A program made the position numbers and the translations under genes. 64,000 bases of DNA from Streptomyces sp. NWU339 (GTDB lineage: Bacteria > Actinomycetota > Actinomycetes > Streptomycetales > Streptomycetaceae): contig NZ_QFRK01000026.1 of assembly GCF_003143855.1 (NCBI RefSeq), positions 44,230 to 108,229 of the forward strand, written 5' to 3'. Under the pieces are notes generated by a model that saw nothing but the letters and a program-made list of their open reading frames with translations, searched no databases and was not told the DNA's origin. This document shows, one piece after another, positions 15,170 through 29,111 of this stretch (positions are counted from its first letter, which is position 1; every line of letters begins with the position of its first letter).

Positions 15170-15964
15170 TCACAGCCACTCGACGTCCCCGTCGAGGAGA
15201 TCACCCAGCTGCTCCTTGTGCAGGTTCAGGACGTTGGCGAGGTGCGACTCCATCAAGGACTCGGCAGCCGACTCGTCACCGTCCAGCACCGCCTGGGCCA
15301 ATCTGAGGTGGTCGTCGACGAGCGCGGCGTGGATCGTCCGAACGTCGCCGACGGTCGCGAAGTGGTGCGCGACCAGTTGACCGTACGCCCGGAACGTCAC
15401 CTGGATGACCCGGTTGCCGGCCAGGGCCGCCAACGCGCCGTGAAAGCCCTCATGTCCGGACATGTACACGTCAAGATCGTCGTGTGCCACGTCGTCGACG
15501 TCACCGGACAGGTACGGAGTCATCGCCGCCTCCCGTGCCGCTGCGTCGGGGTTGGCGGCGGCCAGACGCGCCAAGGTCGACTCGGCGAAGATCCACGCCT
15601 CGAACAGCTCGTCGTAGGAGGCGCCCGCCAGATGGAAGTACAGGGCCTGCAGCCGGCCCAGGTTCGCCGAATCGACCGTGCCGACCAATGGACCTCCGCC
15701 GGGGCCGCGCCGGATCGAGATCATGCCCTGGACCTCGAGAAGCCGAAGTCCCTCACGAAGCGACTCCCGGCCCACGCCGTACAACTTCAGCATCTCCGCC
15801 TCGGAGGGGAGACCGTCTCCCGTGCACAGTCCGTGCGACCGGACCGTGCGCACCACGTCGCGGGCGACGACTTCGGCCGCCTTGAGCGGACGAAGAACCG
15901 ATCCACCGGCCGCGATGGGGATTCCCGCGCGCCCACCGTCTCCGGACGTCACCTTGCTGCTCAT
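15170..15964 (-). CDS. GntR-family regulator, FadR/FCD type (paralogue 2)
   Basis: 264 residues from the ATG at 15964. Winged helix LPSEAEMLKLYGVGRESLRE and LRLLEVQGMISIRRGPGGG; FCD domain with HEGFHGALAALAGN and RAYGQLVAHHFATV. It is about 75 percent identical by eye to the regulator at 2389-3183. Its ATG overlaps the stop of the LLM monooxygenase gene (ATGA), so it is the last cistron of the 14-gene operon starting at 28813. That operon's promoter carries operator O3, so the regulator would repress its own synthesis. The operator O2 promoter lies just beyond its 3' end. Ligand unknown; an acyl-CoA intermediate is likely by family. Confidence 0.9.
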   Translation of the reverse strand: MSSKVTSGDGGRAGIPIAAGGSVLRPLKAAEVVARDVVRTVRSHGLCTGDGLPSEAEMLKLYGVGRESLREGLRLLEVQGMISIRRGPGGGPLVGTVDSANLGRLQALYFHLAGASYDELFEAWIFAESTLARLAAANPDAAAREAAMTPYLSGDVDDVAHDDLDVYMSGHEGFHGALAALAGNRVIQVTFRAYGQLVAHHFATVGDVRTIHAALVDDHLRLAQAVLDGDESAAESLMESHLANVLNLHKEQLGDLLDGDVEWL

Positions 15965-17034
15965 GACCACTCCCCTTCGGAGTTCGCTTGCACCTTGTCG
16001 TTCGTGCCTCCGCCGGGGCCACTGGCACGACGAGGACACTCCCGTAAGAATTCATTCCCATAAATTGATGCCACGCCCGCACGCGGATGATCCCGTACGC
16101 AACCGATGGACGAGGGCGCTTCCGTGAGGGTCTGCCGGCGCTCATCGACGGCTCTGGCGCGCCGGATCCGGTCGGCCCGCACGATCACCTCGTCGAACCC
16201 GTCGGCGGCGTGCTCCGCCACCAGTCCGCGGTCCGCGCTGTCGGCTCTCTCGATGTACATGAACGGGCCGGTCCGTTCCGGAACTTGGCGGATCTCGCTG
16301 ATGTCCGCCTTGGCCCGCGCCGCCTCCGCCGGGGGCGGCGCGCCGGAGACGATCCAGCCGTCTCCGGCAGCGGCTCCCCGGCGCAGGACCGCCGGGGAGG
16401 TGCCGCCCGCGATCACTGAGCCGCCGAGTGCCGTCCCACCGGGCACCACAGCGCTCACCCGAACGGGATCGAACGCCCATCGGTCCGGCCGGTCGCCCGA
16501 GGGGTCGTCGGCGAAAACCCGGCGGAGCACGGCGATCTCGTCGTCGCCGTCGCGGCCACGCGTGGCGAACGGCGCACCGAGCGCCGCGAACTCCCCCTGC
16601 GACCGGCCTGCGCCGGCCCCCGGCCGTAAGCGCCCGCCCGAGACCTCGTGCAGCGTCGCGACGGCCCGTGCGGCCAGGAGCGGGTGCCGGAGCACGGCGA
16701 CGAGCACAGCCGTCCCCGGCCCGGTCGTGCCGGTCGCCCCTGCGACGGCGGCCAGGGCGGCCAACGGGTCGGCCAGGGGCGTCCGTTCGTCGAGGAGGGC
16801 CGTACCCGGCCTGTGCGGGAGCCGCGGTCCACCCGGGCTCGGGTGCGCGGATCCGCGGCCGACGGGGTGCACCACCCGGTCACCGGCCCACCGCGCGCCG
16901 AATCCGGCGGACTCGCCGTCCCGGGCCGGCTCGACGAGTGCCCCACCCGGAACGACCCACCCGCCCGGGCTCAGTCGGACACCCCTCATGCCGCCCCGCC
17001 ACGGGCGGAGCGCAGGAGCAGGAGGACGGATCAC
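15961..17034 (-). CDS. LLM-class (luciferase-like) flavin/F420-dependent monooxygenase, divergent
   Basis: 357 residues from a GTG one base after the preceding stop; an ATG at 16989 fits the family N-terminus (MRGVRLSPGGWV) equally well. Luciferase-like features: LVEPARDGESAGFGARWAGD, LADPLAALAAVAGATG, LGTAVL-like GPGTAVLVAVLRHPLLAA, VSGGRLRPGAGAGRSQGEFA and VIAGGTSPAVLRRGAAAGDG. Several usually conserved positions are changed (for example VGAG-W becomes AGAGR), and a C-terminal tail of about 55 residues has no family counterpart. That tail includes the DNA just before the FadR paralogue 2 gene, with which it overlaps by 4 bases. It may be a drifting enzyme or contain an old frameshift. Substrate unknown; an oxygenative step in the pathway is plausible. 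Confidence 0.65.
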   Translation of the reverse strand: MIRPPAPALRPWRGGMRGVRLSPGGWVVPGGALVEPARDGESAGFGARWAGDRVVHPVGRGSAHPSPGGPRLPHRPGTALLDERTPLADPLAALAAVAGATGTTGPGTAVLVAVLRHPLLAARAVATLHEVSGGRLRPGAGAGRSQGEFAALGAPFATRGRDGDDEIAVLRRVFADDPSGDRPDRWAFDPVRVSAVVPGGTALGGSVIAGGTSPAVLRRGAAAGDGWIVSGAPPPAEAARAKADISEIRQVPERTGPFMYIERADSADRGLVAEHAADGFDEVIVRADRIRRARAVDERRQTLTEAPSSIGCVRDHPRAGVASIYGNEFLRECPRRASGPGGGTNDKVQANSEGEWS

Positions 17035-17035
17035 G

Positions 17036-18214
17036 TCAGAACGACTCCGTCAGCGATCCGACCCGGCTCAGGTCAACGATCCTGCGCTCGGCGATCGCGG
17101 CCCGGGCCTGCACCATCGAGCGCGGGAATCCCACCGAGAGATGTGCGGAGAGCCGCCCTTCGGCGTCGATCCAGGCGGCGCCCCACCGCTCCGGGTCGTC
17201 GTGCCCCCTCAAGAACATGCGATCCCCAGGGCGATGCTGACCCACATACTGCAGCTTCCTGCCGAACTGGTCCGACCAGAAGTAGGGGACGTCGTCGGCC
17301 GACTTCGGCGTGCCCATGATCGCGCCGGCCGCGGCCGGCGCACCGTTCACCGCCTCGTCCCAATGCCCGGAGTGAACCCGCCGACCGAGCAGGTCGCTCC
17401 ACCGCGCGGCCACGTCGCCCACCGCGAACACGTGGGGGTCACTGGTCCGACGGTCCGCGTCGACGGCGACTCCCCCTGCCTCGACGGCGAGACCGGCGCG
17501 GGCCAGCCAGTCGGTCTCGGCGCGCACGCCCACCCCCGTCACCACGATGTCCGCAGGGATGAGCTCGCCGTCGGCGAGCACCACCCCGTCCGCCGAGACC
17601 TCGCGAACCCCGGTCGACGTGCGCAGGTCCACCTCCTGCCACCACGGCAGGAACCGACGCCCGACCTCCGGGCCCAGCGGCCCCTCGAGCGGCGTCGCGC
17701 CGAGCTCCACGCACGTCACCCGGCATCCGCGCGTCAGCGCGGCGGTGCTGACCTCGGCACCGATCCAGCCCGCGCCGATGACGACGAGCCGGGCGCCGGG
17801 CACCAGGGACTCGCGGAGGCGCTCGGCGTCCTCACGGGTGCGCAGGGTCACCTGCGGCCCGTCACCGGGCAGGGTGACCGGGCGCGCCCCGGTGGCGATC
17901 ACCAGGAAGTCGTAGTCGTGTGCCGACCGGTCGGTCGTCACACGCCGCCGTGCCAGGTCCAGGCCCGTGGCGCGCTCGCCGCGGGCGAAGTCCACCCCCA
18001 GCTCCGCCAGGTCCAGGCCCAGGCCGAGGTCGATGTCGCCGTGCAGGAACGCCTTCGCCAACGGCGGTCGGTCGTACGGCTCGTGGAGCTCGTCGCCGAT
18101 CAGTACGATCTCGCCGTCGAAGCCTGCCGATCGGAGCGCCGCACAGGTCCGTCCGCCGCCGATTCCACCACCGACGACGACGACCCTCCGCGGAGCCGCT
18201 CCGGCGTACGTCAT
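17036..18214 (-). CDS. NAD(P)H-dependent ferredoxin/rubredoxin reductase (FAD)
   Basis: 392 residues. Two-dinucleotide-binding flavoprotein fold: FAD site RVVVVGGGIGGGRTCAALRS (residues ~9-28), RPPLAKAFL, VIATGARPV, NAD site LVVIGAGWIGAEVSTAALTR near 145, and FAD-contacting VFAVGDVA near 270. The C-terminal domain (FWSDQFGRKLQYVG) is that of oxygenase-coupled ferredoxin reductases of the BphA4/putidaredoxin reductase type. The ATG overlaps the stop of the upstream dehydrogenase (ATGA). In the same operon lie the P450 (27027) and its 3Fe-4S ferredoxin (26819), so NADH to reductase to ferredoxin to P450 is the natural chain. Confidence 0.92.
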   Translation of the reverse strand: MTYAGAAPRRVVVVGGGIGGGRTCAALRSAGFDGEIVLIGDELHEPYDRPPLAKAFLHGDIDLGLGLDLAELGVDFARGERATGLDLARRRVTTDRSAHDYDFLVIATGARPVTLPGDGPQVTLRTREDAERLRESLVPGARLVVIGAGWIGAEVSTAALTRGCRVTCVELGATPLEGPLGPEVGRRFLPWWQEVDLRTSTGVREVSADGVVLADGELIPADIVVTGVGVRAETDWLARAGLAVEAGGVAVDADRRTSDPHVFAVGDVAARWSDLLGRRVHSGHWDEAVNGAPAAAGAIMGTPKSADDVPYFWSDQFGRKLQYVGQHRPGDRMFLRGHDDPERWGAAWIDAEGRLSAHLSVGFPRSMVQARAAIAERRIVDLSRVGSLTESF

Positions 18215-19305
18215 GCGAGAACCCCCTCCGCACGGAGCACCCGATCGGCCAGGTCGGCCGGCGGGTGCAGGATCATCTCGTTGCTGCGCGCCTTCCGGAA
18301 CAGCAGATGAGCGGAGTGCTCCCAGCTGAACCCGATCCCACCGTGGACCTGGACGTTCTCGCTGCTGGCGAGGACGGCGGCGCGGGACGCCGCCAACAGG
18401 GCCATGGCCGAGGTCTCCGGGAGGTCCCGCGGGCTCTGGACCGCCGCCCACACCGCGTGCTCCACGAGCGACCGGGCCAGGTCGGCTTCGACCGCCACGT
18501 CGGCGAGCACGTGCTTGACGGCCTGGAAGGAGCCGATGACCCTGCCGAACTGCTCGCGGACCTTGGCGTACTCGACGGCGTCCTCCAGCGACTGCTCGGC
18601 GACGCCGAGCTGTTCGCAGGCGAGCAGGAGATCGGCGACCGCCTCGATCCTGTTGCGCAGCCCTTCCGTGACGGCGTCGCCGAGGTCTGTCGCGGGGGCA
18701 CCGTCGACGGTCAGCGTGGTGATGTCCCGGACGAGGTCCAGGGTCTCGTGCCGGTCCCGGGTCGCGTCCGCGACGTCAACTCCGAACCAGCGCGCTCCGG
18801 CCGGGGTCGACGCCTCGGCGATGAGGACGTCTGCCACGGATCCGTCGACGACGGCCGGAGCCGATCCCGTGACCCGCCAGGCGCCGTCGACCTCGACCGC
18901 GCGGAGGTCGCCGGCGAAGGCGACGGCGCCGTGAGCGCTGCCGTCGATCAGTGCGGGCAGCCACACGCCGGCCGCCGGCGACTCGAGCGCGGTCACGAGC
19001 GCCTCGATGGCCAGTGCCGCGCCGAACAGCGGAACCGCCGCGGTTCGCCGGCCCAACACCTCGACGACCGCGCCCAGCTCGGCGTGGGTCGCGCCGGCGC
19101 CGCCCTGCTCCTCCGGCACCGCGAGTCCGAGGATGCCGACCTCGCGGATCAGGCGTTCCCACAGCTCACGGTCGAACGCTCCCTCGGCCGCGACATCGGC
19201 CCGGGCGACCGCGTCGCTGCGGGGCGCGACGCGCTCGGCCAGCTGCGCAACGCACTCGGTGAGCTCCGACCGCAACTCGGCCGCCTCGACATCCTGCAGA
19301 ATCAT
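18211..19305 (-). CDS. acyl-CoA dehydrogenase, short beta-type subunit (FadE27/FadE29-like)
   Basis: 364 residues, acyl-CoA dehydrogenase fold throughout: GLAVPEEQGGAGATHAELG near residue 60, VEYAKVREQFGRVIGSFQAVKH near 245, VQVHGGIGFSWEHSAHLLFR near 325. The middle flavin region is weak, and the C-terminus has FRKARSNEM where active enzymes carry the GTxxIQR motif. This matches the beta subunits of the alpha2beta2 steroid side-chain dehydrogenases of actinobacteria, where one partner supplies catalysis and the other completes the FAD site. The likely alpha partner is the enzyme at 25575-26822. It follows the 19309 dehydrogenase by 3 bases and overlaps the ferredoxin reductase by 4. Confidence 0.87.
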   Translation of the reverse strand: MILQDVEAAELRSELTECVAQLAERVAPRSDAVARADVAAEGAFDRELWERLIREVGILGLAVPEEQGGAGATHAELGAVVEVLGRRTAAVPLFGAALAIEALVTALESPAAGVWLPALIDGSAHGAVAFAGDLRAVEVDGAWRVTGSAPAVVDGSVADVLIAEASTPAGARWFGVDVADATRDRHETLDLVRDITTLTVDGAPATDLGDAVTEGLRNRIEAVADLLLACEQLGVAEQSLEDAVEYAKVREQFGRVIGSFQAVKHVLADVAVEADLARSLVEHAVWAAVQSPRDLPETSAMALLAASRAAVLASSENVQVHGGIGFSWEHSAHLLFRKARSNEMILHPPADLADRVLRAEGVLA

Positions 19306-19308
19306 CCG

Positions 19309-20625
19309 TCACACCTCCACGGAGGTCGGGGCGTCCGTCCGCAGTGACGCGAGGAGGCCGGCGTACTTCTCCTCCGCCTGGACCTGGAGCCGCGGCACGT
19401 GCATCGACGGGAAGAGGTCGGGGGCGGGAGTCACGTCGCGCAGCAGCTGCTTGGCCACGGACTGCTTGTGCACCTCCGTCGCGCCGTCGGCGATCGCCAT
19501 GTGGAAGCTCTCCAGGACGTACTTGCCGAAGGGCATCTCGGTCGAGACCCCCAGCGAGCCGTGCAGCTGCAGGGCACGGCCGGCGACGTCCTGCAGCACC
19601 CTCGGCATCGCGACCTTCACGCCTGCGATGTCCTTGATGACCTGCTTGTAGTCCTTGGCCTGGTCGATCTTCCACGCCGTGCGCAGCACGAACAGCCGGA
19701 ACTGCTCGAGCTGGATCCACGAGTCCGCGATCATCTCCTGGACCAGCTGCAGGTCTCCGAGCCGCCGGCCACGGGTCTCGCGCGAGACCGCCCGCTCGAG
19801 CATCAGGTCCAGCGAGCGGCGCACCAGCGCGACGGTGCGCATCGCGTGGTGGATGCGCCCGCCTCCGAGGCGCACCTGCGCGACCTTGAAGCCGTCACCC
19901 TCCTCGCCGAGCAGGTGGTCCGCGGGGATGCGCACGTCGTTGTACCGGACATAGGCGTGCGTCCCCTCGTGACCGGCGTGGCCGGTGACGCCGACGTTGC
20001 GGACGATCTCGATTCCCGGCGTGTCCGACGGCACGATGAACATCGACGCGCGACGGTGGCGCGGTGCGTCCGGATCGGTCACCGCCATGAGGACGAGGAA
20101 GCTCGCGAACCGGGCGTTCGACGAGAACCACTTCTCGCCGTTCACGACGTAGTGGTCGCCGTCGCGCACGGCCCGGCATCGGAACGACGTCGGGTCCGAT
20201 CCTCCCGTCGGCTCCGTCATCGAGAAGCACGACGCGATCTCGCCCTCGAGCAGCGGGGTCAGGTAGCGACGCTTGAGCTCCTCGGAGCCGAAGTGCGCCA
20301 GCACCTCCGAGTTGCCCGAGTCCGGTGCCTGGGTGCCGAAGACAACGGGGCCGCTGAGGGTCGTGCCGATCAGCTCGTTGAGCAGCGCGAGCTTGAGCTG
20401 ACCGTAGCCGGGGCCACCGAGCTCCGGGTCCAGGTGGCAGGCCCACAGCTCCTTCTCGCGCACCTTCTGCTGCAGGGGCTTGATGATCGCGTTTCGGACG
20501 GGGTCGGCCATGTCGAGCGGGTGCTCGTACATGCGATCGGCCGGCTCGACCTCCTCGCGGACGAACTGCTCGACCCAGTCCAGCTTCGCCTGGTACTCCG
20601 GATCGGTCTGGAAGTCCCACGCCAT
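19309..20625 (-). CDS. acyl-CoA dehydrogenase, ACAD10/11-like clade
   Basis: 438 residues from the ATG at 20625, about 14 bases after a GGAG-like region; the upstream in-frame extension is another gene's shadow. Hallmarks of the ACAD10/11 clade: TQAPDSGNSEVLAHFGSEE near residue 100, FSMTEPTGGSDPT near 135, GEKWFSSNARF near 165, and LGGGRIHHAMRTVALVRR near 250; then ALQLHGSLGVSTEMPF and the C-terminal region ADGATEVHKQSVAKQ. In mammals this dehydrogenase domain acts after 4-phosphorylation of a 4-hydroxyacyl-CoA. An APH-type kinase of the matching kind is encoded at 13936, so a split ACAD11-like system is possible. Ordinary alpha,beta-dehydrogenation is the alternative. Confidence 0.88.
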   Translation of the reverse strand: MAWDFQTDPEYQAKLDWVEQFVREEVEPADRMYEHPLDMADPVRNAIIKPLQQKVREKELWACHLDPELGGPGYGQLKLALLNELIGTTLSGPVVFGTQAPDSGNSEVLAHFGSEELKRRYLTPLLEGEIASCFSMTEPTGGSDPTSFRCRAVRDGDHYVVNGEKWFSSNARFASFLVLMAVTDPDAPRHRRASMFIVPSDTPGIEIVRNVGVTGHAGHEGTHAYVRYNDVRIPADHLLGEEGDGFKVAQVRLGGGRIHHAMRTVALVRRSLDLMLERAVSRETRGRRLGDLQLVQEMIADSWIQLEQFRLFVLRTAWKIDQAKDYKQVIKDIAGVKVAMPRVLQDVAGRALQLHGSLGVSTEMPFGKYVLESFHMAIADGATEVHKQSVAKQLLRDVTPAPDLFPSMHVPRLQVQAEEKYAGLLASLRTDAPTSVEV

Positions 20626-20636
20626 GGTGTTCTCCT

Positions 20637-21080
20637 TCAGGTGGCGGACGGCTCGGATGCGCCGACCGCCCAGTTGGGCAGGACGACGTCCTCTCCGAGG
20701 TCGATGAACTCGACGGTCACGGGCGTGCCCACGCGCAGGTGCGGCCGGCCGGGCAGGTGACCGAGGAAACGGACGGTCGGGTCCCCGGGTCGCGGTTCGA
20801 CATCGACCAGGACCGACGTGTAGGGAACCGGGAAGTGGGGGTTGATCTGGTGCTCGACGACGGTCCACGTGTGGACCCTGCCCTCGCCGGGCACCTCCTC
20901 CCACCCGAGGTCGTCACCGCGGCAGGAACGGCACCGCGGGCGGGGCGGCTGCTGCTGATGCGCGCAGGCGCGGCATGTCTGGACCACGAGCCGGTGCTCC
21001 CGGGCCGCGGCGAAGAATCCCGACGTGTCGGGGTCATCCGTGATCGGACGCAGTCCGATCCCTCCTCCCAGCCCGCTCAT
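20637..21080 (-). CDS. DUF35 OB-fold/zinc-ribbon protein, aldolase partner
   Basis: 147 residues. The N-terminal rubredoxin-like zinc ribbon has C36-x2-C39 and C50-x2-C53 (CRACAHQQQPPRPRCRSC); the C-terminal OB fold has GEGRVHTWTVVEHQ and FPVPYTSVLVDVE. The ATG overlaps the stop of the Ltp gene by 4 bases. Ltp-DUF35 pairs form the retro-aldolase complexes of steroid side-chain degradation, where the DUF35 part is needed for activity. There it is fused behind a MaoC-like domain (ChsH2); here it is free-standing, and a MaoC hydratase is encoded elsewhere (33266). Confidence 0.9.
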   Translation of the reverse strand: MSGLGGGIGLRPITDDPDTSGFFAAAREHRLVVQTCRACAHQQQPPRPRCRSCRGDDLGWEEVPGEGRVHTWTVVEHQINPHFPVPYTSVLVDVEPRPGDPTVRFLGHLPGRPHLRVGTPVTVEFIDLGEDVVLPNWAVGASEPSAT

Positions 21081-22258
21081 GCCGACACCAGCAGCAGAGC
21101 GCTCGCCCCCGGCGGAGGCGCCGAGGTGACCAGCGAGACCTCGGCCCCGGGGACTTGAGCGGTCGACGTTCCGCGGATCTGGCGGACGCCCTCGACGATG
21201 TGGTTCATGCCATGGATGTACGCCTCGGACAACTGGCCTCCTGCCGTGTTGATCGGGATCCGTCCGCCGACGTCGAGCGCGCCGCCCTCGACGAAGGCCG
21301 ACGCGTCGAGCCGGTCGCAGAATCCGTAGTCCGGCAGTTGGAGGAACACCGTGATGGTGAAGCAGTCGTAGAGCTGCGCCACATCGACGTCGCTCGCCGT
21401 CAGGCCGGCACGCGCGTAGAGCCGCTCGGCGACGCGCCGGGAGGTGAGGGTGTCGAGGCTCTCCCCCATCAGCACCGGATACATCTGTCCCGGCCCGACC
21501 CGCGTCCCCGTGCCCTGTGCGACGGAACGGATCATCGCCGGCGGCTGCGCGCAGTCGCGCGCCCGCTCCGCCGAGGTGACGACCAGCGCCGCCGCGCCGT
21601 CCGTCTCCAGACAGAAGTCGTAGAGGCGCAGTGGGTCGGAGATCATCCTCGACGCGTAGTAGTCGTCGAGCGTCAACGGACGGTCGTACATCTGTGCCGC
21701 CGGGTTCGCGTTGGCTCGCCGGCGGCACACCATGGCGATCTCGGCGAGCGCCTCCGACGTCAGGCCCCACTCCTCCTGGTAGCGCCGGGCGATCATGGCG
21801 AAGAACTGGCCGGGCGAGGTGACGCCGTACGGTGAGAACAGCTCGAGGTAGCTCGAGTTCCCCCCGACGCCGCCGTCGACCGACACGCCCTTGCCCAGCC
21901 GCCGCCCCGACCGGCCGTTGAGCGCTCGGTAGACGAGGACGTTCGTGGCCTGGCCGGACACGATCGCCGCCACCGCCTGCCCGACCATCGCCGCCGGGCC
22001 GGAACCGCCGGGACCGTTCTGGCCCCAGTACGCGATGTCGTCGATGCCGAGCGCGTCCGCCAGTGCCACCTGGGACGTCTCGTCGTAGTCGCTGCGGATC
22101 AGTCCGTCGATGTCGGCGGGAACCAGCCCGGCGTCCGCGATGGCGGCCAGCGACGCCTCGGCAGCGAGTGAGGTGACGCTGACGCCGGACGCCTTCGAGT
22201 ACGCGGTCGTGCCGATGCCGACGACCGCGCACCGGTCCGGCACCCAGGTGTCGCTCAC
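21077..22258 (-). CDS. thiolase-like lipid-transfer protein (Ltp), probable retro-aldolase
   Basis: 393 residues with the thiolase fold of the SCPx/Ltp class: CAVVGIGTTAYSK near residue 9, YDCFTITVFLQLPDYGFC near 295, and the C-terminal NTAGGQLSEAYIHGMNHIVE (NTxGG). Where true thiolases have the nucleophile Cys (NxxCxSG), this protein reads QNGPGGSGPAA, so no thiolytic Cys exists there. That matches Ltp2-type enzymes, which cleave 3-hydroxyacyl-CoA by retro-aldol chemistry and use Tyr residues. Its gene overlaps the DUF35 gene downstream and a CoA-transferase upstream, both by ATGA. Expected products: a ketone or aldehyde plus acetyl-CoA or propionyl-CoA. The side chain cleaved is unknown. 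Confidence 0.88.
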   Translation of the reverse strand: MSDTWVPDRCAVVGIGTTAYSKASGVSVTSLAAEASLAAIADAGLVPADIDGLIRSDYDETSQVALADALGIDDIAYWGQNGPGGSGPAAMVGQAVAAIVSGQATNVLVYRALNGRSGRRLGKGVSVDGGVGGNSSYLELFSPYGVTSPGQFFAMIARRYQEEWGLTSEALAEIAMVCRRRANANPAAQMYDRPLTLDDYYASRMISDPLRLYDFCLETDGAAALVVTSAERARDCAQPPAMIRSVAQGTGTRVGPGQMYPVLMGESLDTLTSRRVAERLYARAGLTASDVDVAQLYDCFTITVFLQLPDYGFCDRLDASAFVEGGALDVGGRIPINTAGGQLSEAYIHGMNHIVEGVRQIRGTSTAQVPGAEVSLVTSAPPPGASALLLVSA

Positions 22259-23472
22259 GACGCCACCTCGCCGGCGGCGAGACCGCTCACCACCGCGGCG
22301 GTGTCCGCTCCGAGGCGCGGAGGCGCCTTCGGCCCGCCGGTTCCGTACGAGAACCGGAACGGCGCCCCCGGGAACAGAGCCGGCTCACCGTCACCGGCCG
22401 CGACCGGGACGAAGAAGCCGCGCTCTCGCAGGTGCGGATCGTCGAGGAGCTGCTCGGGCGCGAAGACCGGACCGATCGGCAGGCCACGGCGCTGGGCCTC
22501 CTCGTAGACCGTGACCGAGTCCTGCATCAGGAAGAACGACTCCATGATCGTCTGGATGTGGGAGAAGTGCTCCTGCCGGTACGCCAGCGAGAGGTACTCC
22601 TCACCTCCCAGGTCGAGGTCGAGACCCAGCGTGGTGAGCCACTCGACCAGCGTCGTCCACGTCCGGTCGTCGCTGAGGATCAGCGCGAAGTACACCTGGA
22701 CGCCGTCGGCGCACTCGAACAGAGCCGGCTGCGTCGGCGACGGCTGCGCGTGCCGGCACGTCTGTCGTTCGAGGAGGACCCGGGGGTAGAACCAGTACGG
22801 GTTCGCCAGCTCCCCGCTGACCGCCACGGCCTCGTGCATCGAGACGTCGACCAGCTGACCCAGTCCCGTGGCCTGCCGTTCGAGCAGGGCGAGGAGTACC
22901 CCGCAGTGGCCGAAGCTCGCCGCGATCTGGAAGGCCTGGTTCCCACCCGGCCTGATCGGCGGGATCGTGTGGTCGTCGTAGCCGCAGCTCATGAGGATCC
23001 CGCCGGCGGCGAGTGCCACGAGGTCGCTCGAACGCCACTCGGCCCAGGGGCCTGTCAACCCGAACGGAGAGACCGACAGGACGATCAGGTGCGGCAACTC
23101 GTCGACGAGCGCGTGCAGATCGAGTCCGTCAGCCTCCAGGTCGCGCGGGCCGGCCGACGTGATGAGCACGTCGGCGTCGGTGATGAGCGCCCCGCGCTCC
23201 TGACGCCCCTCGGCTGTGGACGTGTCCACGACGACACTGCGCTTGCCCGTGTTGTACGTCCAGAAGTGCAGGCTGTGGTCGGGGTCGCCCTCGTGGCCCT
23301 GTGCCCACGGGCCGATCCTGCGGCCGGCCGATCCGCCGGGGGGCTCGACCTTGACGACGTCGGCGCCCTGGTCGGCGAGCAGCTTGCCGACGATCTCGCC
23401 CTGGGGATCCTGAGCGAGTTCGACGACTCGCAGACCGCTGTACGTCAGTTCCGACGTGGGGCCGTCCCACAT
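22255..23472 (-). CDS. CaiB/BaiF type III CoA-transferase (1)
   Basis: 405 residues of the interlocked type III CoA-transferase family: LRVVELAQDPQGEIVGKLLADQ at the start, GADVVKVEPPGG near residue 37, TYNTGKRSVVVDTST near 75, VSPFGLTGPWAEW near 135, and TGLGQLVDVSMHEAV near 205. Such enzymes move CoA between carboxylic acids, or act as epimerases (AMACR-like). The canonical Asp of the SMxD motif is Glu here. It sits one base downstream of the second CoA-transferase and overlaps ltp by 4 bases. The pair may form a hetero-oligomer, or one may load and one salvage CoA. Substrate unknown. Confidence 0.88.
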   Translation of the reverse strand: MWDGPTSELTYSGLRVVELAQDPQGEIVGKLLADQGADVVKVEPPGGSAGRRIGPWAQGHEGDPDHSLHFWTYNTGKRSVVVDTSTAEGRQERGALITDADVLITSAGPRDLEADGLDLHALVDELPHLIVLSVSPFGLTGPWAEWRSSDLVALAAGGILMSCGYDDHTIPPIRPGGNQAFQIAASFGHCGVLLALLERQATGLGQLVDVSMHEAVAVSGELANPYWFYPRVLLERQTCRHAQPSPTQPALFECADGVQVYFALILSDDRTWTTLVEWLTTLGLDLDLGGEEYLSLAYRQEHFSHIQTIMESFFLMQDSVTVYEEAQRRGLPIGPVFAPEQLLDDPHLRERGFFVPVAAGDGEPALFPGAPFRFSYGTGGPKAPPRLGADTAAVVSGLAAGEVAS

Positions 23473-23473
23473 G

Positions 23474-24784
23474 TCAGATCACCCCTTCCGACTCGAGCTC
23501 TGCGATCTCGTCGCCGGTCAGCCCGAGCATGTCGCCGAACACGTGGTGGTTGTCCTCACCGAGCAGTGGCGCGGAGCGCCAGGTGTGCTGGCGCGTCCGC
23601 GAGAACGTGACGGGCGTCCCCTCGAACCGGGCCTCGCCGATCACCGGGTGATCGAGCTCGAAGAAGATTCCGCGCTCCCGCAGCTGCGGGTCCCACTCGT
23701 TGATCTCCTCGGCTGTCTGCGCCGCACCGGCGGCCACACCCGCCGACTGCAGGAGCAGCATGGCCTCGCGGGGACTGCGCTGCCGGGTCCAGGCCGTGAC
23801 GTGCTCGTCCAGCGCGTCCTGGTGGGCACGGCGCGACCCCTCGGTCGCGAACCGCGGATCCTCGGTCCAGGCCGGCCGTCCGATCGCCTCGACGAACCGC
23901 GTCCAGTCGTCGTCCCCGAAGACGGCGATCGCGATCCAGCGATCGTCACTGTCGCTCGGATACACCCCGTGGGGCGCTGCGGGCGGATGCTCGAGCCGGT
24001 TCCCGCGGGGGAAGTCGGGACGCCTGGTGTGGTGGCCGTTCACGGTCACGTCGAGCATGTCGGGCCCGATCATCGAGATGCCGACCTCGACGGCGGAGAC
24101 GTCGACCTCGGCGCCGCGCCCTGTCTTGTTCCGTCGCAGGATCGCCATCATGAGTGCGGCCGAGTTGTAGTACGCCGCCTGGTTGTCCATGTAGGACAGC
24201 CCCCATCCGGACGGCTCGCGGCCGGGAAGTCCGCTGATGAAGGACAGTCCGCTGACCGCCTGGACGATCGGTCCGTAGGACTTGAAGTGCGCGTGCGGGC
24301 CCGAGTGCCCGAACCCGCTCATGCGTCCGTAGACGACGTTCGGTGACAGTTCGTCCAGCCGCTCGTAGGTGAGTCCCCAGCGCTCCATCACGCCCGGGGC
24401 GAAGTTCTCCGTCACGACGCTGCTCACCGAGATCAGACGGTCGACCAGGTCGCGCCCCTTCGGTGACTTCATGTCGACCGTGATGCCGAGCTTGTTGCGG
24501 CTGTAGTTGTTGTGGAGTCCTCCGCGGTTCGGGTCGGCGTCGGGTACCTCCTCACCGTAGTTGCGCGCCTCGCCCTTGTAGATCGGGAGCAGGCGGGGCC
24601 GGTCGATCCGGCGCCTGTTCTCGATCTTGATCACCTCGGCCCCGAAGTCCGCGAGCATGCGCGTGGCCACGGAGCCGACGCCCATCCAGCAGAAGTCGGC
24701 CACGCGGACACCCGCGAGCGGTCCGACCCGCGGCACCGGCGTGCGGTGGGCGGGACGTGCTGGAGACTCGTTCACCGACGTCAT
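23474..24784 (-). CDS. CaiB/BaiF type III CoA-transferase (2)
   Basis: 436 residues from the ATG at 24784. Family landmarks: LAGVRVADFCWMGVGSVATR near residue 23, GAEVIKIENRRR near 48, RNKLGITVDMKSPKGRDL near 95, YGRMSGFGHSGPHA near 150, KTGRGAEVDVSAVEVGIS near 220 (again Glu where many relatives have Asp). It differs clearly from its neighbour at 22255, so this is not a recent duplication. It is separated from that gene by a single base and lies 38 bases after the SDR. Role: CoA transfer onto a pathway acid, or alpha-methylacyl-CoA epimerisation before dehydrogenation; the sequence does not decide. Confidence 0.88.
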   Translation of the reverse strand: MTSVNESPARPAHRTPVPRVGPLAGVRVADFCWMGVGSVATRMLADFGAEVIKIENRRRIDRPRLLPIYKGEARNYGEEVPDADPNRGGLHNNYSRNKLGITVDMKSPKGRDLVDRLISVSSVVTENFAPGVMERWGLTYERLDELSPNVVYGRMSGFGHSGPHAHFKSYGPIVQAVSGLSFISGLPGREPSGWGLSYMDNQAAYYNSAALMMAILRRNKTGRGAEVDVSAVEVGISMIGPDMLDVTVNGHHTRRPDFPRGNRLEHPPAAPHGVYPSDSDDRWIAIAVFGDDDWTRFVEAIGRPAWTEDPRFATEGSRRAHQDALDEHVTAWTRQRSPREAMLLLQSAGVAAGAAQTAEEINEWDPQLRERGIFFELDHPVIGEARFEGTPVTFSRTRQHTWRSAPLLGEDNHHVFGDMLGLTGDEIAELESEGVI

Positions 24785-24822
24785 GCAGGTTGCTCGCTCT
24801 CTGTGAGGGGGATCGGGGTGGC

Positions 24823-25578
24823 TCAGGACATCGCGGTGCGTCCACCGTCGACCGGCAGCACCGTTCCGGTGGTGAAGGAGGACAGGTCGGAGGCGTAGTA
24901 GAGGGCGGCTCCGACGATCTCGCGCGGTTCCCCGGCACGGCCGAGGGGGAACGACTTCGCGCGCTCGCGCCACTCGTCCGTGTACCAGACGTCGCTCAGG
25001 TCCGTCAGGAAGGGCCCGGCCATGATCGTGTTGCAGCGGATCCGCGGGCCGTAGGCCTGGGCCAGGCCCTTGGTCAGGGTGTTCAACCCCGCCTTCGCCG
25101 CGGCGTAGACGAGGTCGGAGGTCTTCGGGCGGACCGAGGCGATCGAGCTCACGTTGACGATCGACCCGCCGTCGGACATCCGTGGAGCCGCGAGGGTGCT
25201 GAGCCGGAACGGACCCTTGAGGTTGACGTCGAAGGTCTTGTCGAACAGCTGCTCCGTCGCGGTCTCGAGGCTCTCGTACATCGGGGCGATGCCGGCGTTG
25301 TTCACCAGTACGTCGAGACGACCGAACTCCTCGAAGACGGTGTCGACGAGCGCCTCGCCACCGGACCAGTCGCCGACGTGGGCGCCGACCCCGACGGAGC
25401 GGACACCGCTGTCGCGGGTCAGCTTCTCCGCCACCTCCCGGCACGCGTCGGCCTTGCGGCTCGCGACCACGACATTGGCTCCTGCCCGGGCGAACGCCTG
25501 GCACATCTCCAGGCCGAGGCCACGGCTGCCGCCGGTCACCAGTACGACCCGGCCGGTCAGGTCGATCGACACGCTCAT
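24823..25578 (-). CDS. short-chain dehydrogenase/reductase
   Basis: 251 residues, classical SDR. Cofactor motif VTGGSRGLGLEM near residue 14, NNAGIAP near 92, catalytic Ser in IVNVSSIAS near 145, YAAAKAGL (YxxxK) near 160, and C-terminal GTVLPVDGG. ASRKAD after the second strand suggests NADP preference. Its ATG overlaps the stop of the preceding acyl-CoA dehydrogenase (ATGA). In this operon it could oxidise the alcohol made by the P450 or a 3-hydroxyacyl-CoA. Substrate not readable. Confidence 0.9.
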   Translation of the reverse strand: MSVSIDLTGRVVLVTGGSRGLGLEMCQAFARAGANVVVASRKADACREVAEKLTRDSGVRSVGVGAHVGDWSGGEALVDTVFEEFGRLDVLVNNAGIAPMYESLETATEQLFDKTFDVNLKGPFRLSTLAAPRMSDGGSIVNVSSIASVRPKTSDLVYAAAKAGLNTLTKGLAQAYGPRIRCNTIMAGPFLTDLSDVWYTDEWRERAKSFPLGRAGEPREIVGAALYYASDLSSFTTGTVLPVDGGRTAMS

Positions 25579-26822
25579 GGCCCCTCCTTCTCTGACCGGG
25601 ACTTGGACACCTTGGGCTCGGGTGGCAGGTTCAGGTGCCGCTCGGCGACGATCGACCGCTGGATCTGGTCGGTTCCGCCTGCGATGCGGTAGCCGGGAGC
25701 ACCGAGGACGTGGGCGTTCCACGAGAACGTGCCCGGCTCGCCGAGGTCGGCGACCGCCCGGTCGGCCAGTAGGGTGCGCGCCAGGTCGGAGACCCGGTTG
25801 AGCTTCGCGACCCACTGCAGCTTGCGCATGGAGCCGGCGGCGCCGGGCGCCTCGCCGGCATCGCGTGCGCGCTTGTCGCGCCGGAGGGCGATCTCGGCGG
25901 CGACCTCCCGCATCCGGACATCGGCCAGTGCGAGCCTGACGTCGCGGTGGGACAGGGAGCGGGTTCGTCGCGCGAGGTCGACCAACTGCTCGAACGACCC
26001 GCCGACGCCGGCCTTGTTGGAGGCGTTGGCGCGCTCGAAGCCCAAGGTCGCCCGGGTGACGCCCCACCCGTCGCCGACGTCGCCCATCCGGTACGCGTCC
26101 GGAACGCGCACGTCGGTCAGGAACACCTCGTTGAAGCTCGTCCCACCCGACATCTGCCGGATCTGGCGCACCTCGACACCCGGCGCGTCCATGGGGATCA
26201 TGAGGGTGGTCAGACCGCGGTTGCGGCTCGAGCCGGCCTCGGTCCGGACGATCGCCTGGCCCCAGTCGGCGAACTGCGCACCGGACGTCCACACCTTCTG
26301 CCCGTTGACGACCCACTCGTCGCCTTCGCGCACGGCCCGGGTGGAGATGTCCGCGAGGTCCGAGCCGGCCCCCGGCTCCGAGAACAGCTGGCACGCGAGC
26401 AGTGAGCCGTCGAGCAGCCCCGGGAGCAGCAGGGACCTGAGCTCGTCCGACCCGTAGATCCGCACGGTGGGGGCGATCAGATTGACGGTCACCGAGAAGA
26501 GTTCGTGTCGGGTCGGAGCGACCGCGGCGGTCTCCTCGTCCTTGAAGGCGTCGGCGTACTCCGTGGGCAGGCCGGCACCGTGCAGCTCCGTCGGCCACGA
26601 GAGTGCCGCGTAGCCGGCGTCGAACTTGAGCCGCTGCCACTCCCGCAGCTCGCGCAGGACCTCGAGTTCGGCGTCGTGGTCGAGATTGTGGAAGACCGAG
26701 ACGTCGTGCTCGTCCCGCACGGCCGATCGGGCAGGAGCGTTCTGCCTCAGCCAGGCCCGGGCCCGCTCGCGGAACTCCTCGATCGTCGGAGTCCCGACGG
26801 TCATGTCGATCGCCATCGTCAC
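25575..26822 (-). CDS. acyl-CoA dehydrogenase, alpha-type (FadE26/FadE28-like)
   Basis: 415 residues from a GTG that overlaps the ferredoxin stop (GTGA); an ATG two codons later is also possible. Full acyl-CoA dehydrogenase: LSWPTELHGAGLP near residue 75, FSEPGAGSDLADISTRAV near 140 (flavin site), GQKVWTSGAQFADWGQAIV, and C-terminal YRIAGGTDQIQRSIVAERHL. It resembles the alpha subunits of heteromeric dehydrogenases acting on steroid side-chain CoA esters, and the short dehydrogenase at 18211 looks like its beta partner. The large N-terminal half and the intact GTDQIQR motif contrast with that partner. It probably desaturates a bulky branched acyl-CoA; substrate unknown. Confidence 0.9.
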   Translation of the reverse strand: MTMAIDMTVGTPTIEEFRERARAWLRQNAPARSAVRDEHDVSVFHNLDHDAELEVLRELREWQRLKFDAGYAALSWPTELHGAGLPTEYADAFKDEETAAVAPTRHELFSVTVNLIAPTVRIYGSDELRSLLLPGLLDGSLLACQLFSEPGAGSDLADISTRAVREGDEWVVNGQKVWTSGAQFADWGQAIVRTEAGSSRNRGLTTLMIPMDAPGVEVRQIRQMSGGTSFNEVFLTDVRVPDAYRMGDVGDGWGVTRATLGFERANASNKAGVGGSFEQLVDLARRTRSLSHRDVRLALADVRMREVAAEIALRRDKRARDAGEAPGAAGSMRKLQWVAKLNRVSDLARTLLADRAVADLGEPGTFSWNAHVLGAPGYRIAGGTDQIQRSIVAERHLNLPPEPKVSKSRSEKEGP

Positions 26823-27025
26823 GCCCCGTCACTCACCGAGATCGCGCGCTCGGGGCAGTTGTCGACGGCCGACAGCAGGTCCGCGACACCGTCCCGGTCG
26901 TCGGGAACACGCTCGTCGAGGATGACCGGGAAGCCCTCGTCGTCGTAGTCGAAGAAGGCCGACGCGAGCGTGTAGCAACGGCCGTGGCCGCTGCACTTCG
27001 AGGTGTCGACGGTGATGCGCTTCAT
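26819..27025 (-). CDS. 3Fe-4S ferredoxin, P450 redox partner
   Basis: 68 residues. Cluster ligands sit in CSGHGRCYTLASAFF and NCPERAISV: one position of the 4Fe-4S pattern is His or Gly instead of Cys, as in the small 3Fe-4S ferredoxins serving bacterial P450s. The N-terminus MKRITVDTSKC is canonical, so I use the ATG at 27025, one base after the P450 stop; an in-frame start at 27043 would overlap the P450 gene. It would carry electrons from the reductase at 17036 (or FprB at 10290) to the P450 immediately upstream. Confidence 0.93.
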   Translation of the reverse strand: MKRITVDTSKCSGHGRCYTLASAFFDYDDEGFPVILDERVPDDRDGVADLLSAVDNCPERAISVSDGA

Positions 27026-27026
27026 C

Positions 27027-28292
27027 TCAGGCCTCCCAGGCAAGCTGCAGCTTCTCGATGCCGACCTGCGGGCCGCTCTCGACCAGGCCCTCGGTGTTCG
27101 TGACGCGGTAGTTCGGGATCCGCTTGTGCCACTCCTCGAGGGTGATGGCGAGCTCGGTCCGGGCGAGGTGTGCGCCGGCGCAGCGGTGCGGGCCGCCCGC
27201 GAACGAGAAGTGGCGGTTGACCTGGCGGTCGAGGCGGATCTCGGTCGGGTCGTCGTACACGGCCTCGTCGCGCGAGGCCGACGGGTTGGCGACCATCACC
27301 ATGTCGCCCTTCTTCATCGGGCAGCCGTGGAAGTCGACGTCCTCGGCGACCTGACGGGCGGTCATCACGATGTTGTGCGCGCGCAGGAACTCCTCGACCG
27401 CGTTCGGGATGATCTCCGGCTCACGCGTGATCCACTCACGATCCGAGTCGTGTGTGGCCAGCCAGTAGAAGATGTAGCTCAGCTGGCTCTTCACCGTGTC
27501 GAGGCCGGCCAGGAGCATCACCTCCGACATGTTCAGGAACTCGTCGTCGCGGATCGGCCGACCCTCGATCTGGGCGTTCGCGAGGATCGTGAAGAAGTCG
27601 TCCTCGGCGTTCGCCGGCGGGTTCTCCCGGCGGTCCTTGAGGACGCCCGCGAAGTAGGTGTGGATGTCCCGCTGCGCCTGCAGCTGGTCCTCGGCCTCCT
27701 CGCCGAAGTGACCGAGGCCCTCGAAGATCGTCTCGACCCACCCCATGAACATGTCGGTGTGCTCCAGCGGGAGCCCGAGGATGCGCAGGAAGACCTTGGT
27801 CGGGAACACCTTCGCGAACTGCTCGAGGAAGTCGCACTGGCCGTCGGCCAGGAACGACTCGATGGTGTCGATGCAGTCCTGGCGGATGGAATCCTCGATG
27901 GCCTTCACGAAACGCGGGGAGAAGGCGATGCTGACGAAGCGCCGGTACTCGCTGTGCAGCGGCGGATCGATCATCGTCGGGATCCAGGTCCAGTCCGGGT
28001 GCGGGACGGTCGGGATGGTGGCGCTGCTGCTGAAGATCTCCGGCGTCTGGTACGCCTCGCCGACGAGATCGGAGGTCAGCAGCATCCAGAAGCCGGGGCC
28101 GTACGTCGAGTAGGCCGTCGGACCCTGGTGGCGGAGCTTGTCGAACTCCTCGAAGTAGCTCAGCGCCGGCTTCGGGTTCGTGTAGTCGAAGTGGACGACC
28201 GGGCATCCCGCGGCCTTCGCTCGCTCGAGCCGCTCGGCGGCTTCGGCGGCTTCGGCGGCCTCGTCGTACTGCCCGCTGGTCGTGGTGTGCAT
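27027..28292 (-). CDS. cytochrome P450
   Basis: 421 residues, bacterial class I P450. I-helix oxygen-activation motif LLAGLDTVKSQLSY near residue 255, K-helix EEFLRAHNIV (ExxR), AEDVDFHGCPMKKGD, and heme loop HFSFAGGPHRCAGAHLART with the thiolate ligand at Cys371. The N-terminus has an AAEAAEAAERLERAKAAG helix and no membrane anchor, so it is soluble. The ATG at 28292 follows GAGCG 7-10 bases upstream. It is the second gene of the long operon and is followed by its own ferredoxin. It likely hydroxylates the substrate or its CoA ester, as CYP125/CYP142 do for sterol side chains, but the family cannot be named from sequence alone. Confidence 0.95.
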   Translation of the reverse strand: MHTTTSGQYDEAAEAAEAAERLERAKAAGCPVVHFDYTNPKPALSYFEEFDKLRHQGPTAYSTYGPGFWMLLTSDLVGEAYQTPEIFSSSATIPTVPHPDWTWIPTMIDPPLHSEYRRFVSIAFSPRFVKAIEDSIRQDCIDTIESFLADGQCDFLEQFAKVFPTKVFLRILGLPLEHTDMFMGWVETIFEGLGHFGEEAEDQLQAQRDIHTYFAGVLKDRRENPPANAEDDFFTILANAQIEGRPIRDDEFLNMSEVMLLAGLDTVKSQLSYIFYWLATHDSDREWITREPEIIPNAVEEFLRAHNIVMTARQVAEDVDFHGCPMKKGDMVMVANPSASRDEAVYDDPTEIRLDRQVNRHFSFAGGPHRCAGAHLARTELAITLEEWHKRIPNYRVTNTEGLVESGPQVGIEKLQLAWEA

Positions 28293-28318
28293 CGGCGCTC
28301 CTCGCTCGGTGGACGGTC

Positions 28319-28813
28319 TCAGTGACTGACGGCTGGGGGGACTGCGGCGCCGTTCGGCGGCGCTGTGGTGATCGGGAGGTGGTTGGCGACCTTGATCGTG
28401 TGGACCATGCGCGACAGGACCCAGCCGCGCTCCCCTCGGTCGAACTCCAGGTCGTAGGTCGCCGCCATCATCAGGACGTGTGACGGGTCGTCCTTCAGCA
28501 TCTGGTGGGACACCAGGTACGCCTGGGCGGTGGCCCGGTCGCCGGCGACGTCGACGCCGTACGGCGCGACCATGTGGTGCTGCCACGCCAGGTGGGCCGT
28601 GTTGTCGCGGATGTAGTCGACCATCGCCCGCGCACCCGTCACGACCGTCCGGCCGTTGTGGTAGTCGGCCACGACCTCGTCCGCGAGGATCCCGGCGAGT
28701 CCCTCCCACTCGCGAGCGTCCACGAGGGCTGCGTAGTCAGTGATGACGCGACGGATCTCGAGGTCGTCGACGGCCCGCGCGAGTCGCTCCACGAGGTGCT
28801 CGGTGGTGTCCAC
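28319..28813 (-). CDS. SnoaL-like (NTF2-fold) protein
   Basis: 164 residues from the GTG at 28813, preceded by AAAGGAG at good spacing; an ATG at 28843 lies too near the promoter. The cone-shaped NTF2/SnoaL fold is suggested by VDDLEIRRVITDYAALVDAREW near residue 13, then VVADYHNGRTVVTGARAMVDYI, HLAWQHHMVAP, VSHQMLKDD and ATYDLEFDRGERGWVLSRM. Tyr, Asp and His at the usual pocket positions are kept, so it may be a dehydratase, isomerase or ring hydrolase of a cyclic intermediate, or only a ligand binder. It is the first gene of the 14-gene operon, 26 bases before the P450. Confidence 0.85.
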   Translation of the reverse strand: MDTTEHLVERLARAVDDLEIRRVITDYAALVDAREWEGLAGILADEVVADYHNGRTVVTGARAMVDYIRDNTAHLAWQHHMVAPYGVDVAGDRATAQAYLVSHQMLKDDPSHVLMMAATYDLEFDRGERGWVLSRMVHTIKVANHLPITTAPPNGAAVPPAVSH

Positions 28814-28848: not shown

Positions 28849-28877
28849 ACGCTAATTCGTCATGATAATTAGGTCAA
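28849..28877 (-). promoter_or_regulatory. promoter of the 14-gene operon with operator O3 in the spacer
   Basis: On the minus strand TTGACC (28872-28877) and TAGCGT (28849-28854) are 17 bases apart; the spacer contains ATTCGTCATGATAATT in plus-strand reading (28855-28870), a variant of the island palindrome. The first gene starts at 28813, leaving a leader of about 25-30 bases. Confidence 0.78.
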
Positions 28878-29025: not shown

Positions 29026-29111
29026 TGCCCGCAAGATCGAGACCCCTCGACTCGCGAGACGCCCGGCGTGCCCCGCCCCGGCCCACTCGGGAAGCCGTCG
29101 CCGGACTCTTA

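Follow-up and report, generated by a model that had tools for sequence, protein, structure and literature searches.

A recurring regulon around a P450-Ltp-DUF35 operon of Streptomyces sp. NWU339, with a predicted retro-aldolase and a putative role in the degradation of a branched alicyclic acid

A 64,000-nucleotide stretch of the genome of Streptomyces sp. NWU339 (NCBI RefSeq assembly GCF_003143855.1, contig NZ_QFRK01000026.1, positions 44,230 to 108,229), hereafter the window, carries on its minus strand a run of 14 genes, from 28813 down to 15170, in which adjacent genes either share 4 bases or are separated by no more than 35. In 5' to 3' order, the first half encodes a SnoaL_4 protein, a cytochrome P450, a ferredoxin, an acyl-CoA dehydrogenase (ACAD), a short-chain dehydrogenase/reductase (SDR) and two type III CoA-transferase proteins (genes coaD and coaN), and the second half an Ltp protein of thiolase fold, a DUF35 protein of the ChsH2 type, an ACAD11-type enzyme, a second ACAD, a ferredoxin reductase, an LLM-family protein and a GntR/FCD regulator (Table 1). 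Both the packing and the domain matches bear out the initial annotation of the locus, in which a 14-gene operon with these domains had been listed and likened to the mycobacterial igr operon. Here, I propose that this operon is the centre of a real and recurring catabolic regulon of some 46 kb (about 2.4-49 kb of the window), roughly three times larger than the operon itself. With a probability of about 0.6, the regulon, controlled by GntR/FCD proteins, would degrade a branched alicyclic, probably terpenoid-derived acid via CoA thioesters, joining a putative retro-aldolase (Ltp-DUF35), a putative 4-hydroxyacyl-CoA kinase/eliminase pair and an isobutyryl-CoA mutase (IcmF). What is new is the way in which the genes are combined, and also the aldolase clade, rather than any one of the enzyme folds.

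The Ltp protein and the DUF35 protein, its presumed partner, both have their nearest solved chains in entry 6ok1, and the catalytic tyrosines of TcLtp2, Y294 and Y344, align with Y297 and Y347 of the window Ltp (residues Tyr297, Cys299 and Tyr347); on these two grounds, retro-aldol chemistry of the Ltp2-DUF35 type may be regarded as well supported at the sequence level. According to PMC12329534, the catalytic residues employed by TcLtp2 are Tyr294 and Tyr344, and those of CtSal are Tyr302 and Cys304, both within a YDCY motif. With the Sal-Shy bile acid aldolase and with Ltp2, the window pair shares the family of DUF35-partnered, thiolase-fold retro-aldolases, and its YDC residues recur in the YDCY of Sal; it differs from both in that its clade carries a Cys as in Sal and also a second Tyr as in Ltp2. 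All 40 aligned rows of the clade do so, reading YDCF (38) or YDCY (2), whereas the nine Ltp2-type rows read YDHF (7) or YDAF (2) and keep the second Tyr. YDCF and the Tyr are also found in an M. branderi protein that lies outside the clade (39% identical). In the tree, 16 window-clade rows and nine Ltp2-type rows separate at 100/100 support; among the rows of both alignment and tree are genes that had been fetched twice, duplicate removal also dropped the closest relatives of the window protein (Georgenia, Nocardioides), which is therefore placed to clade level only, and the 23 of 48 rows assigned to no group may lie inside one. On model NF005892 (PRK07855, lipid-transfer protein of the Ltp2 type; cut-off 469) the window Ltp scores 432 bits and the proteins of its clade 396-450, with one partial match at 282; the 450-bit protein is a second Georgenia copy (L134), located outside the cluster and grouped in the 'core' of the tree. 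Seven of the 13 carriers searched hold Ltp2-type proteins over the cut-off elsewhere in the genome, nine in all (648-721 bits), classed by model score. A clade mixing Sal and Ltp2 residues would provide a natural test of how side-chain length is chosen.

A second Ltp-like protein, with QDTE or QDTD replacing the YDxF motif, is represented by 13 rows from Rhodococcus, Nocardia, Nocardioides, Frankia and others (loci L017:17604-19030, L018, L024, L026, L028-L031, L034, L047, L050, L105 and L126). Its gene adjoins that of an OB-fold protein in the annotated Rhodococcus opacus plasmid, and no counterpart was found in the window operon.

The regulon is outlined by a palindrome with a consensus close to TAATTCNTCATGANGAATTA. 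In the window, the 20-base pattern with up to three mismatches gives nine matches counting both strands, which correspond to five places, and none in 100 shuffles. A relaxed pattern (up to two mismatches) finds five places genome-wide, three in the window and two poor ones elsewhere, against one for the reversed control; it misses the sites at 28853 and 29110 and is thus not exhaustive. A weight matrix built from the five window sites, with a hit threshold of score 20, returns 45 hits in 20 of 31 related loci (627 kb), none in 51 unrelated CoA-transferase loci (955 kb) and a mean of 0.33 over three first-order resamplings. Hits also occur in two loci from alphaproteobacterial metagenome-assembled genomes (MAGs; L033, L035) and in one Caulobacterales MAG locus (L042), and in Nocardioides sp. 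YIM 152315 an operator-like site of score 30.7 stands before icmF. Judging from their position, the two GntR/FCD proteins are predicted to bind the palindrome, which would make the regulon self-regulated. The palindrome and a divergent promoter region are also common to the operon and a KstD/ChcC-like flavoprotein gene (29136-31001), which the initial annotation did not include.

The core of the cluster recurs well beyond Streptomyces. CoaN is a sharp marker, for its listed homologues are either more than 50% or about 28-34% identical; among 80 loci returned, the 29 with CoaN at 50% or above were taken as related, and the other 51 (28-32%) as the negative set. The related loci include two from one contig (L048 and L049), two from one genome (L030 and L044), some short ones, and one (L043) whose 'Kuenenia' label may be a binning error. 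In all 29, coaD adjoins coaN; homologues of the other core genes are found in 22 (duf35), 21 (ltp), 20 (sdr1), 20 (gntR), 16 (fadD), 13 (aph, for the APH-fold kinase), 13 (acadA, the first ACAD), 12 (acad11) and 10 (acadB, the second ACAD) loci, and neither kstD nor icmF was found within the fetched flanks (up to 10 kb) of any. Carriers comprise Georgenia, Nocardioides, Nocardia, Rhodococcus and alphaproteobacteria including Caulobacter relatives. A case in point concerns the annotated plasmid pRop44186_a of R. opacus, which has the same core with a different P450. In a wider fetch, the surroundings of the Georgenia ruanii and Nocardioides sp. YIM 152315 clusters contain kstD-like genes (74% and 72%), homologues of echA, sdr3, the aldehyde dehydrogenase and the thiamine diphosphate (ThDP)-dependent enzyme, and TRAP transporter genes alongside; in the latter species, a bktB/icmF pair lies about 30 kb from the P450 operon. 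The triad of enoyl-CoA hydratase (ech), CoA-transferase and amidohydrolase genes at 45141-48953 keeps its order in eight of 49 loci, from Rhodococcus to Caulobacter, and is rearranged in a ninth. At E <1e-80, coaN is present in one of 392 genomes of the same genus as the window, namely its own; at E <1e-120, it is present in six of 394 of the class, its own included, and it occurs in seven of 215 genomes of the Nocardioides genus group (G764). Being this rare in its genus and present in other actinobacterial groups, the cluster was probably acquired from another actinobacterium. Since the core recurs so widely, across several actinobacterial families and Caulobacter relatives, and the operator is found in 20 of 31 loci, the system probably serves a common natural compound.

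Some features of these loci deserve separate mention. Beside the Georgenia kstD-like gene (L117:8283-15215) lies a sugar-type ABC transporter, one open reading frame (ORF) of which fuses a permease domain with a strictosidine-synthase/SMP-30-like (lactonase-type) domain; ORFs of like size stand at L112:8134-15084 in Nocardioides. Inside the Georgenia cluster (L118:4218-6298), a transposase with a Mu-type C-terminal domain and an IstB-like protein (IS21 type) hint at mobility. In Nocardioides alcanivorans (L048/L049), the cluster appears as a large inverted duplication on one contig, real or an assembly artefact. Annotated plasmids of M. branderi, Rhodococcus BH4 and Streptomyces NBC_00080 bearing a P450 at 36-43% yielded no substrate, and their gene orders are different.

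In the alignment of the CoA-transferases, an Asp at CoaD residue 201, which I take from formyl-CoA transferase to be the catalytic one, is present in 34 of 34 CoaD rows and in none of 30 CoaN rows, the column adjoining a gap so that the residue replacing Asp in CoaN is unsure; this distribution suggests that CoaD is the catalytic subunit and CoaN a structural partner. The APH-fold kinase and the ACAD11/LvaC-type enzyme stand behind the same operator, and their homologues co-occur in related loci. By a pair of this kind, in bacteria (lva) as well as in mammals, a 4-hydroxyacyl-CoA is phosphorylated and the phosphate eliminated to yield an enoyl-CoA (PMC11342911). The window pair may thus be a kinase/eliminase of the lva kind, eliminating phosphate from a 4-phosphoacyl-CoA. 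The likeness to the lva levulinic acid operon (LvaA kinase, LvaC ACAD) consists in an APH-fold kinase, an ACAD11/LvaC-type enzyme, an SDR and a CoA ligase within one regulon; in the window, however, the two genes belong to separate operons, beside a retro-aldolase and a P450, and levulinate is not implied. As a substrate it was set aside, for the P450, the Ltp and the ring-type flavoprotein would be left without a role. IcmF, in which B12-binding, G-domain (MeaB) and mutase (MM_CoA_mutase) domains are fused in that order (Pfam), matches the Cupriavidus metallidurans enzyme over nearly its full length, with the difference that the window icmF stands behind the operator of a ring-compound regulon. 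Together with EchA and a 3-hydroxybutyryl-CoA dehydrogenase, such a mutase would take isobutyryl-CoA towards acetyl-CoA. The APH kinase, which completes the lva-like module, and the mutase under the shared operator are the two most telling features of the system, and neither figured in the initial annotation. The SnoaL_4 protein, a predicted (de)hydratase, is weakly similar to BaiE of the bai operon, where BaiF is a type III CoA-transferase, as in the window; unlike bai, the window system is P450-based. The regulon would unite two chemistries described separately, namely DUF35-partnered retro-aldol cleavage (steroid side chains) and 4-hydroxyacyl-CoA phosphorylation-elimination (levulinate, human ACAD10/11).

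The LLM gene probably decays inside an otherwise intact operon: its second-codon-position GC is atypical (0.63, against 0.41-0.54 in the other 16 of 17 gene stretches measured), its similarity is low (34.5% identity to the R. opacus counterpart, over a full-length open frame), and the operon loci of the two nearest clusters, in Georgenia (L022) and Nocardioides sp. YIM 152315 (L023), yielded no homologue. In the latter, a different LLM gene lies some 6.5 kb upstream of snoaL. A role of the window protein as ring-opening oxygenase is doubtful.

The genes may be arranged into the following route. After uptake by the Liv-type ABC transporter, the substrate would be hydroxylated by the CYP101-like P450 with its ferredoxin and reductase, oxidized by SDRs and the aldehyde dehydrogenase, and desaturated in the ring, adjacent to a ketone, by the KstD/ChcC-like flavoprotein. 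CoA would be loaded by FadD and by the CoA-transferase formed of the catalytic CoaD and the Asp-less CoaN; AcadA and AcadB would desaturate the thioester, and the BaiE-like SnoaL protein or a hydratase would add or remove water. Ltp-DUF35 would cleave a beta-hydroxyacyl-CoA in a retro-aldol reaction. The APH kinase and the ACAD11-type enzyme would convert a 4-hydroxyacyl-CoA into an enoyl- or 3-hydroxyacyl-CoA, and beta-oxidation would follow, with IcmF turning released isobutyryl-CoA into butyryl-CoA. Three features favour a terpenoid-like substrate without proving it: the isobutyryl-CoA outlet, the ring-type flavoprotein and the similarity of the P450 to CYP101.

Several observations weigh against this proposal. 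Thiolases and acylases, too, are found among the Ltp-fold proteins that have a DUF35 partner. The window-type P450 (at least 40% identity) is present in only three of the 29 related loci. An icmF match exists in 11 of 19 carrier genomes or records, on the coaN contig in Nocardioides sp. YIM 152315 only, and none in the other eight, two of which are plasmid records only; IcmF was consequently rejected as a universal part of the core, and with icmF so rarely linked to the cluster, isobutyryl-CoA may arise as a by-product or be confined to the P450 branch. The operator is well conserved in actinobacteria and patchy elsewhere, as the 11 of 31 loci below score 20 include Caulobacter ginsengisoli (14.9), a Caulobacter MAG (16.4) and Phenylobacterium (19.3), besides N. 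alcanivorans (14.1), Trebonia and short contigs; in the window, the weight-matrix scan found no operator in front of the ThDP enzyme. IcmF, the ACADs and the CoA-transferases are assigned to one putative pathway by linkage, and to my knowledge no substrate is known for any core carrier. A literature search, mostly at the level of titles and abstract openings, found no description of the cluster.

One alternative is a true igr-type operon, which would strip a sterol or bile acid side chain of its last propionyl unit. The mycobacterial igr operon is composed of cyp125-fadE28-fadE29-chsH1-chsH2-ltp2, and the window operon likewise unites a P450, ACADs, an Ltp-fold protein with the TcLtp2 tyrosines and a ChsH2-type DUF35 protein; moreover, the Ltp and DUF35 proteins match the Ltp2/ChsH2 complex best, AcadB resembles steroid ACADs and the SnoaL protein weakly resembles BaiE. 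Of the igr features checked, however, a ChsH2-type DUF35 protein was found, but not an Ltp2-family Ltp, a CYP125-type P450 or a MaoC hydratase. The aldolase falls below the Ltp2 cut-off and in its separate YDCF clade, while seven of 13 carriers have an Ltp2-type gene above it elsewhere. The DUF35 protein stands alone (147 amino acids, no MaoC domain), and no MaoC match was found among the ORFs scanned, no genome-wide MaoC search having been made. The P450 (heme motif FSFAGGPHRCAG) has as its 53 best solved chains in phmmer members of the CYP101 family, several of them labelled only 'cytochrome P450' and presumably belonging to it, and CYP125MRCA follows at rank 54 (2e-50), a ranking of similarity only. 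The regulon further adds the CoA-transferase pair, APH/ACAD11 and IcmF. The initial annotation had also read the two adjacent ACADs as an alpha/beta pair; the beta-like AcadB stands, but since its neighbour is of the ACAD11 type, the two are not an obvious FadE28/FadE29-like pair, and AcadA is the likelier partner of AcadB.

The search for steroid ring genes covered the entire genome, which comprises 169 contigs and has a stated completeness of 100. KshA_C (PF19298) has no match, with none of 14 control genomes over cut-off and so no strong positive control; Mce/MlaD (PF02470) has no match either, with four of the 14 over cut-off, the only one of these searches with positive controls; and the single HsaC-type match (TIGR03213) reaches 59 bits against a cut-off of 366, which no control passed. 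This agrees with the earlier statement that KshA- or HsaC-type genes and an Mce importer are not seen. Nor did full steroid ring-degradation genes under the same palindrome, named beforehand as a counter-finding, come to light, since the palindrome-linked KstD/ChcC-like enzyme scores 258-330 bits on steroid-dehydrogenase models with cut-offs of 788-793 and KshA and HsaC were not found. Membership in igr is hence rejected and a steroid side-chain operon very unlikely; as far as sequences can tell, the resemblance is one of chemistry (Ltp-DUF35 residues, 6ok1), not of membership. The initial annotation caught the central operon and rightly doubted the steroid assignment, and its suggestion of a related yet distinct substrate, branched or cyclic, remains the best interpretation. 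As a caution, Ltp, DUF35 and P450 in an annotation do not alone imply steroid degradation.

Among non-steroid substrates, a tentative sub-case of the branched alicyclic acid is a monocyclic or bicyclic monoterpenoid (cineole, terpineol, camphor or menthane type), ring-opened to a 4-hydroxy or 4-oxo acid for the APH/ACAD11 pair, with the isopropyl or gem-dimethyl carbon ending as isobutyryl-CoA. It would account for IcmF and the lva-like module in the regulon and for a P450 nearest to the CYP101D1, CYP101J2 and P450cam chains, but CYP101-family similarity does not fix a substrate, the P450s of most related clusters are different, the LLM gene, which would be the best candidate for a ring-opening oxygenase, shows signs of decay, and a full-text literature search on such terms yielded nothing relevant. 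A long shot is that the core serves bacteria to break down isoprenoid acids with a gem-dimethyl cyclohexenoid ring, such as abscisic acid or a similar norisoprenoid. Bacteria are described as shortening the side chain of abscisic acid to dehydrovomifoliol and then rhodococcal acid (PMC7996341 and PMC9599779), by a mechanism called unknown in 2019 (PMC6460035). Users of abscisic acid with published genomes include Rhodococcus sp. P1Y and R. globerulus AX7B (PMC6460035, PMC12509608). As a CoA ester, rhodococcal acid would be a beta-hydroxyacyl thioester with a tertiary hydroxyl, isobutyryl-CoA for IcmF could derive from the gem-dimethyl carbon, and a 1,4-diketone ring product could give a 4-oxo or 4-hydroxy acid for APH/ACAD11; against this, the P450 branch would have no obvious role and icmF is unlinked in most carriers. 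A pathway akin to Chc, for an acid of the cyclohexanecarboxylate type, is very unlikely: 4-oxocyclohexanecarboxylate 2-dehydrogenase (ChcC1) is the best NCBIfam match of the divergent flavoprotein and an SDR resembles ChcB2, but these scores lie far below cut-off (345 of 1000 and 204 of 350 bits) and led to its rejection, and the Chc pathway, which employs a P450, ChcB dehydrogenases and ChcC desaturases, would leave a retro-aldolase, a CoA-transferase pair and a kinase without use. Hardly any credence can be given to a biosynthetic or tailoring cluster; SnoaL, P450 and ferredoxin do occur in antibiotic clusters of such actinomycetes, but the ORFs scanned (first 49 kb) include no recognizable synthase or assembly-line domain, and the gene content is one of uptake, activation, beta-oxidation and IcmF.

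Table 1. Genes and operator sites of the proposed regulon, in window coordinates
Feature	Position	Strand	Evidence or remark
GntR/FCD regulator 1 (gntR1)	2389..3183	-	domain matches
operator palindrome	3276..3295		between gntR1 and echA-icmF-hbd
echA, enoyl-CoA hydratase	3320..4168	+	PRK08290 450 bits, cut-off 280
IcmF, fused isobutyryl-CoA mutase	4360..7587	+	4xc6 1644 bits, residues 7-1075 of 1075
hbd, 3-hydroxybutyryl-CoA dehydrogenase-like	7722..8732	+	PRK07819 460.6 bits, cut-off 319
thiolase, BktB-like	9090..10271	-	profile matches
fprB-like ferredoxin-fused pyridine-nucleotide reductase	10290..11948	-	weak operator-like site at 11957
FadD acyl-CoA ligase	12085..13935	-	true start uncertain
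APH-fold kinase, LvaA / ACAD10-11 N-domain type	13936..15045	-	APH 3e-41; HNDFKIDN and FDWD motifs visible
operator palindrome	15090..15109		upstream of aph-fadD-fprB-bktB
GntR/FCD regulator 2	15170..15964	-	74% identical to regulator 1
LLM-family gene, probably decaying	15961..17034	-	
ferredoxin reductase	17036..18214	-	Pyr_redox_2 and Reductase_C
acadB, beta-type ACAD, IpdE2/Tcur3481-like	18211..19305	-	middle domain not detected
ACAD11/LvaC-type acyl-CoA dehydrogenase-fold enzyme	19309..20625	-	ACAD11 8v3u 2e-79
DUF35, stand-alone ChsH2-type (zinc ribbon and OB), without MaoC domain	20637..21080	-	zf-ChsH2/OB_ChsH2_C; 6ok1_B 5e-16
Ltp-type retro-aldolase (predicted), YDCF and Tyr347	21077..22258	-	6ok1_A 1.5e-91, 172/381 identical
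coaN, type III CoA-transferase-like partner without the Asp of CoaD, system-specific marker	22255..23472	-	
coaD, type III CoA-transferase, catalytic-type subunit	23474..24787	-	CoA_transf_3 1e-103
sdr1, SDR dehydrogenase	24823..25578	-	homologue of at least 48% in 20/29 related loci
acadA, acyl-CoA dehydrogenase, pimC-like	25575..26822	-	profile matches
single-cluster ferredoxin, probably 3Fe-4S	26819..27025	-	Fer4_15 2e-12
cytochrome P450, CYP101-like	27027..28292	-	phmmer 3lxh 5e-66, 6wgw (CYP101D1) 2e-65
SnoaL_4 protein, operon gene 1	28319..28813	-	Pfam SnoaL_4 6e-20; BaiE 4l8o nearest solved structure, E 2e-4
operator palindrome	28853..28872		upstream of the 14-gene operon
operator palindrome	29110..29129		upstream of kstD-like gene; weaker site at 29008
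KstD/ChcC-like flavoprotein dehydrogenase, divergent from operon	29136..31001	+	ChcC1 345 bits (cut-off 1000); 7p18 2e-65
sdr2, SDR	31146..31913	+	profile matches
operator palindrome	32312..32331		upstream of sdr3-fadA
sdr3, SDR	32376..33269	+	profile match
fadA, acetyl-CoA acyltransferase	33775..34992	+	PRK07851 713 bits, cut-off 580; start approximate
ThDP-dependent enzyme	35914..37524	-	homologue near Georgenia and Nocardioides clusters
aldehyde dehydrogenase	38378..40237	-	true start probably near 39820
Liv-type ABC transporter (LivF, LivG, binding protein, permeases)	40310..45023	-	
three weaker operator-like sites	45109..45190		between transporter operon and ech triad; scores 21.4, 18.8, 24.1
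enoyl-CoA hydratase/isomerase-like (ech), triad gene 1	45141..46301	+	
third CoA-transferase III-like ORF, triad gene 2	46066..47547	+	true start probably after 46301
Amidohydrolase_3, triad gene 3	47436..48953	+	

The ThDP-dependent enzyme has benzaldehyde lyase and 2-hydroxyacyl-CoA lyase types among its nearest solved chains, and could provide a C-C cleavage step feeding the aldehyde dehydrogenase.

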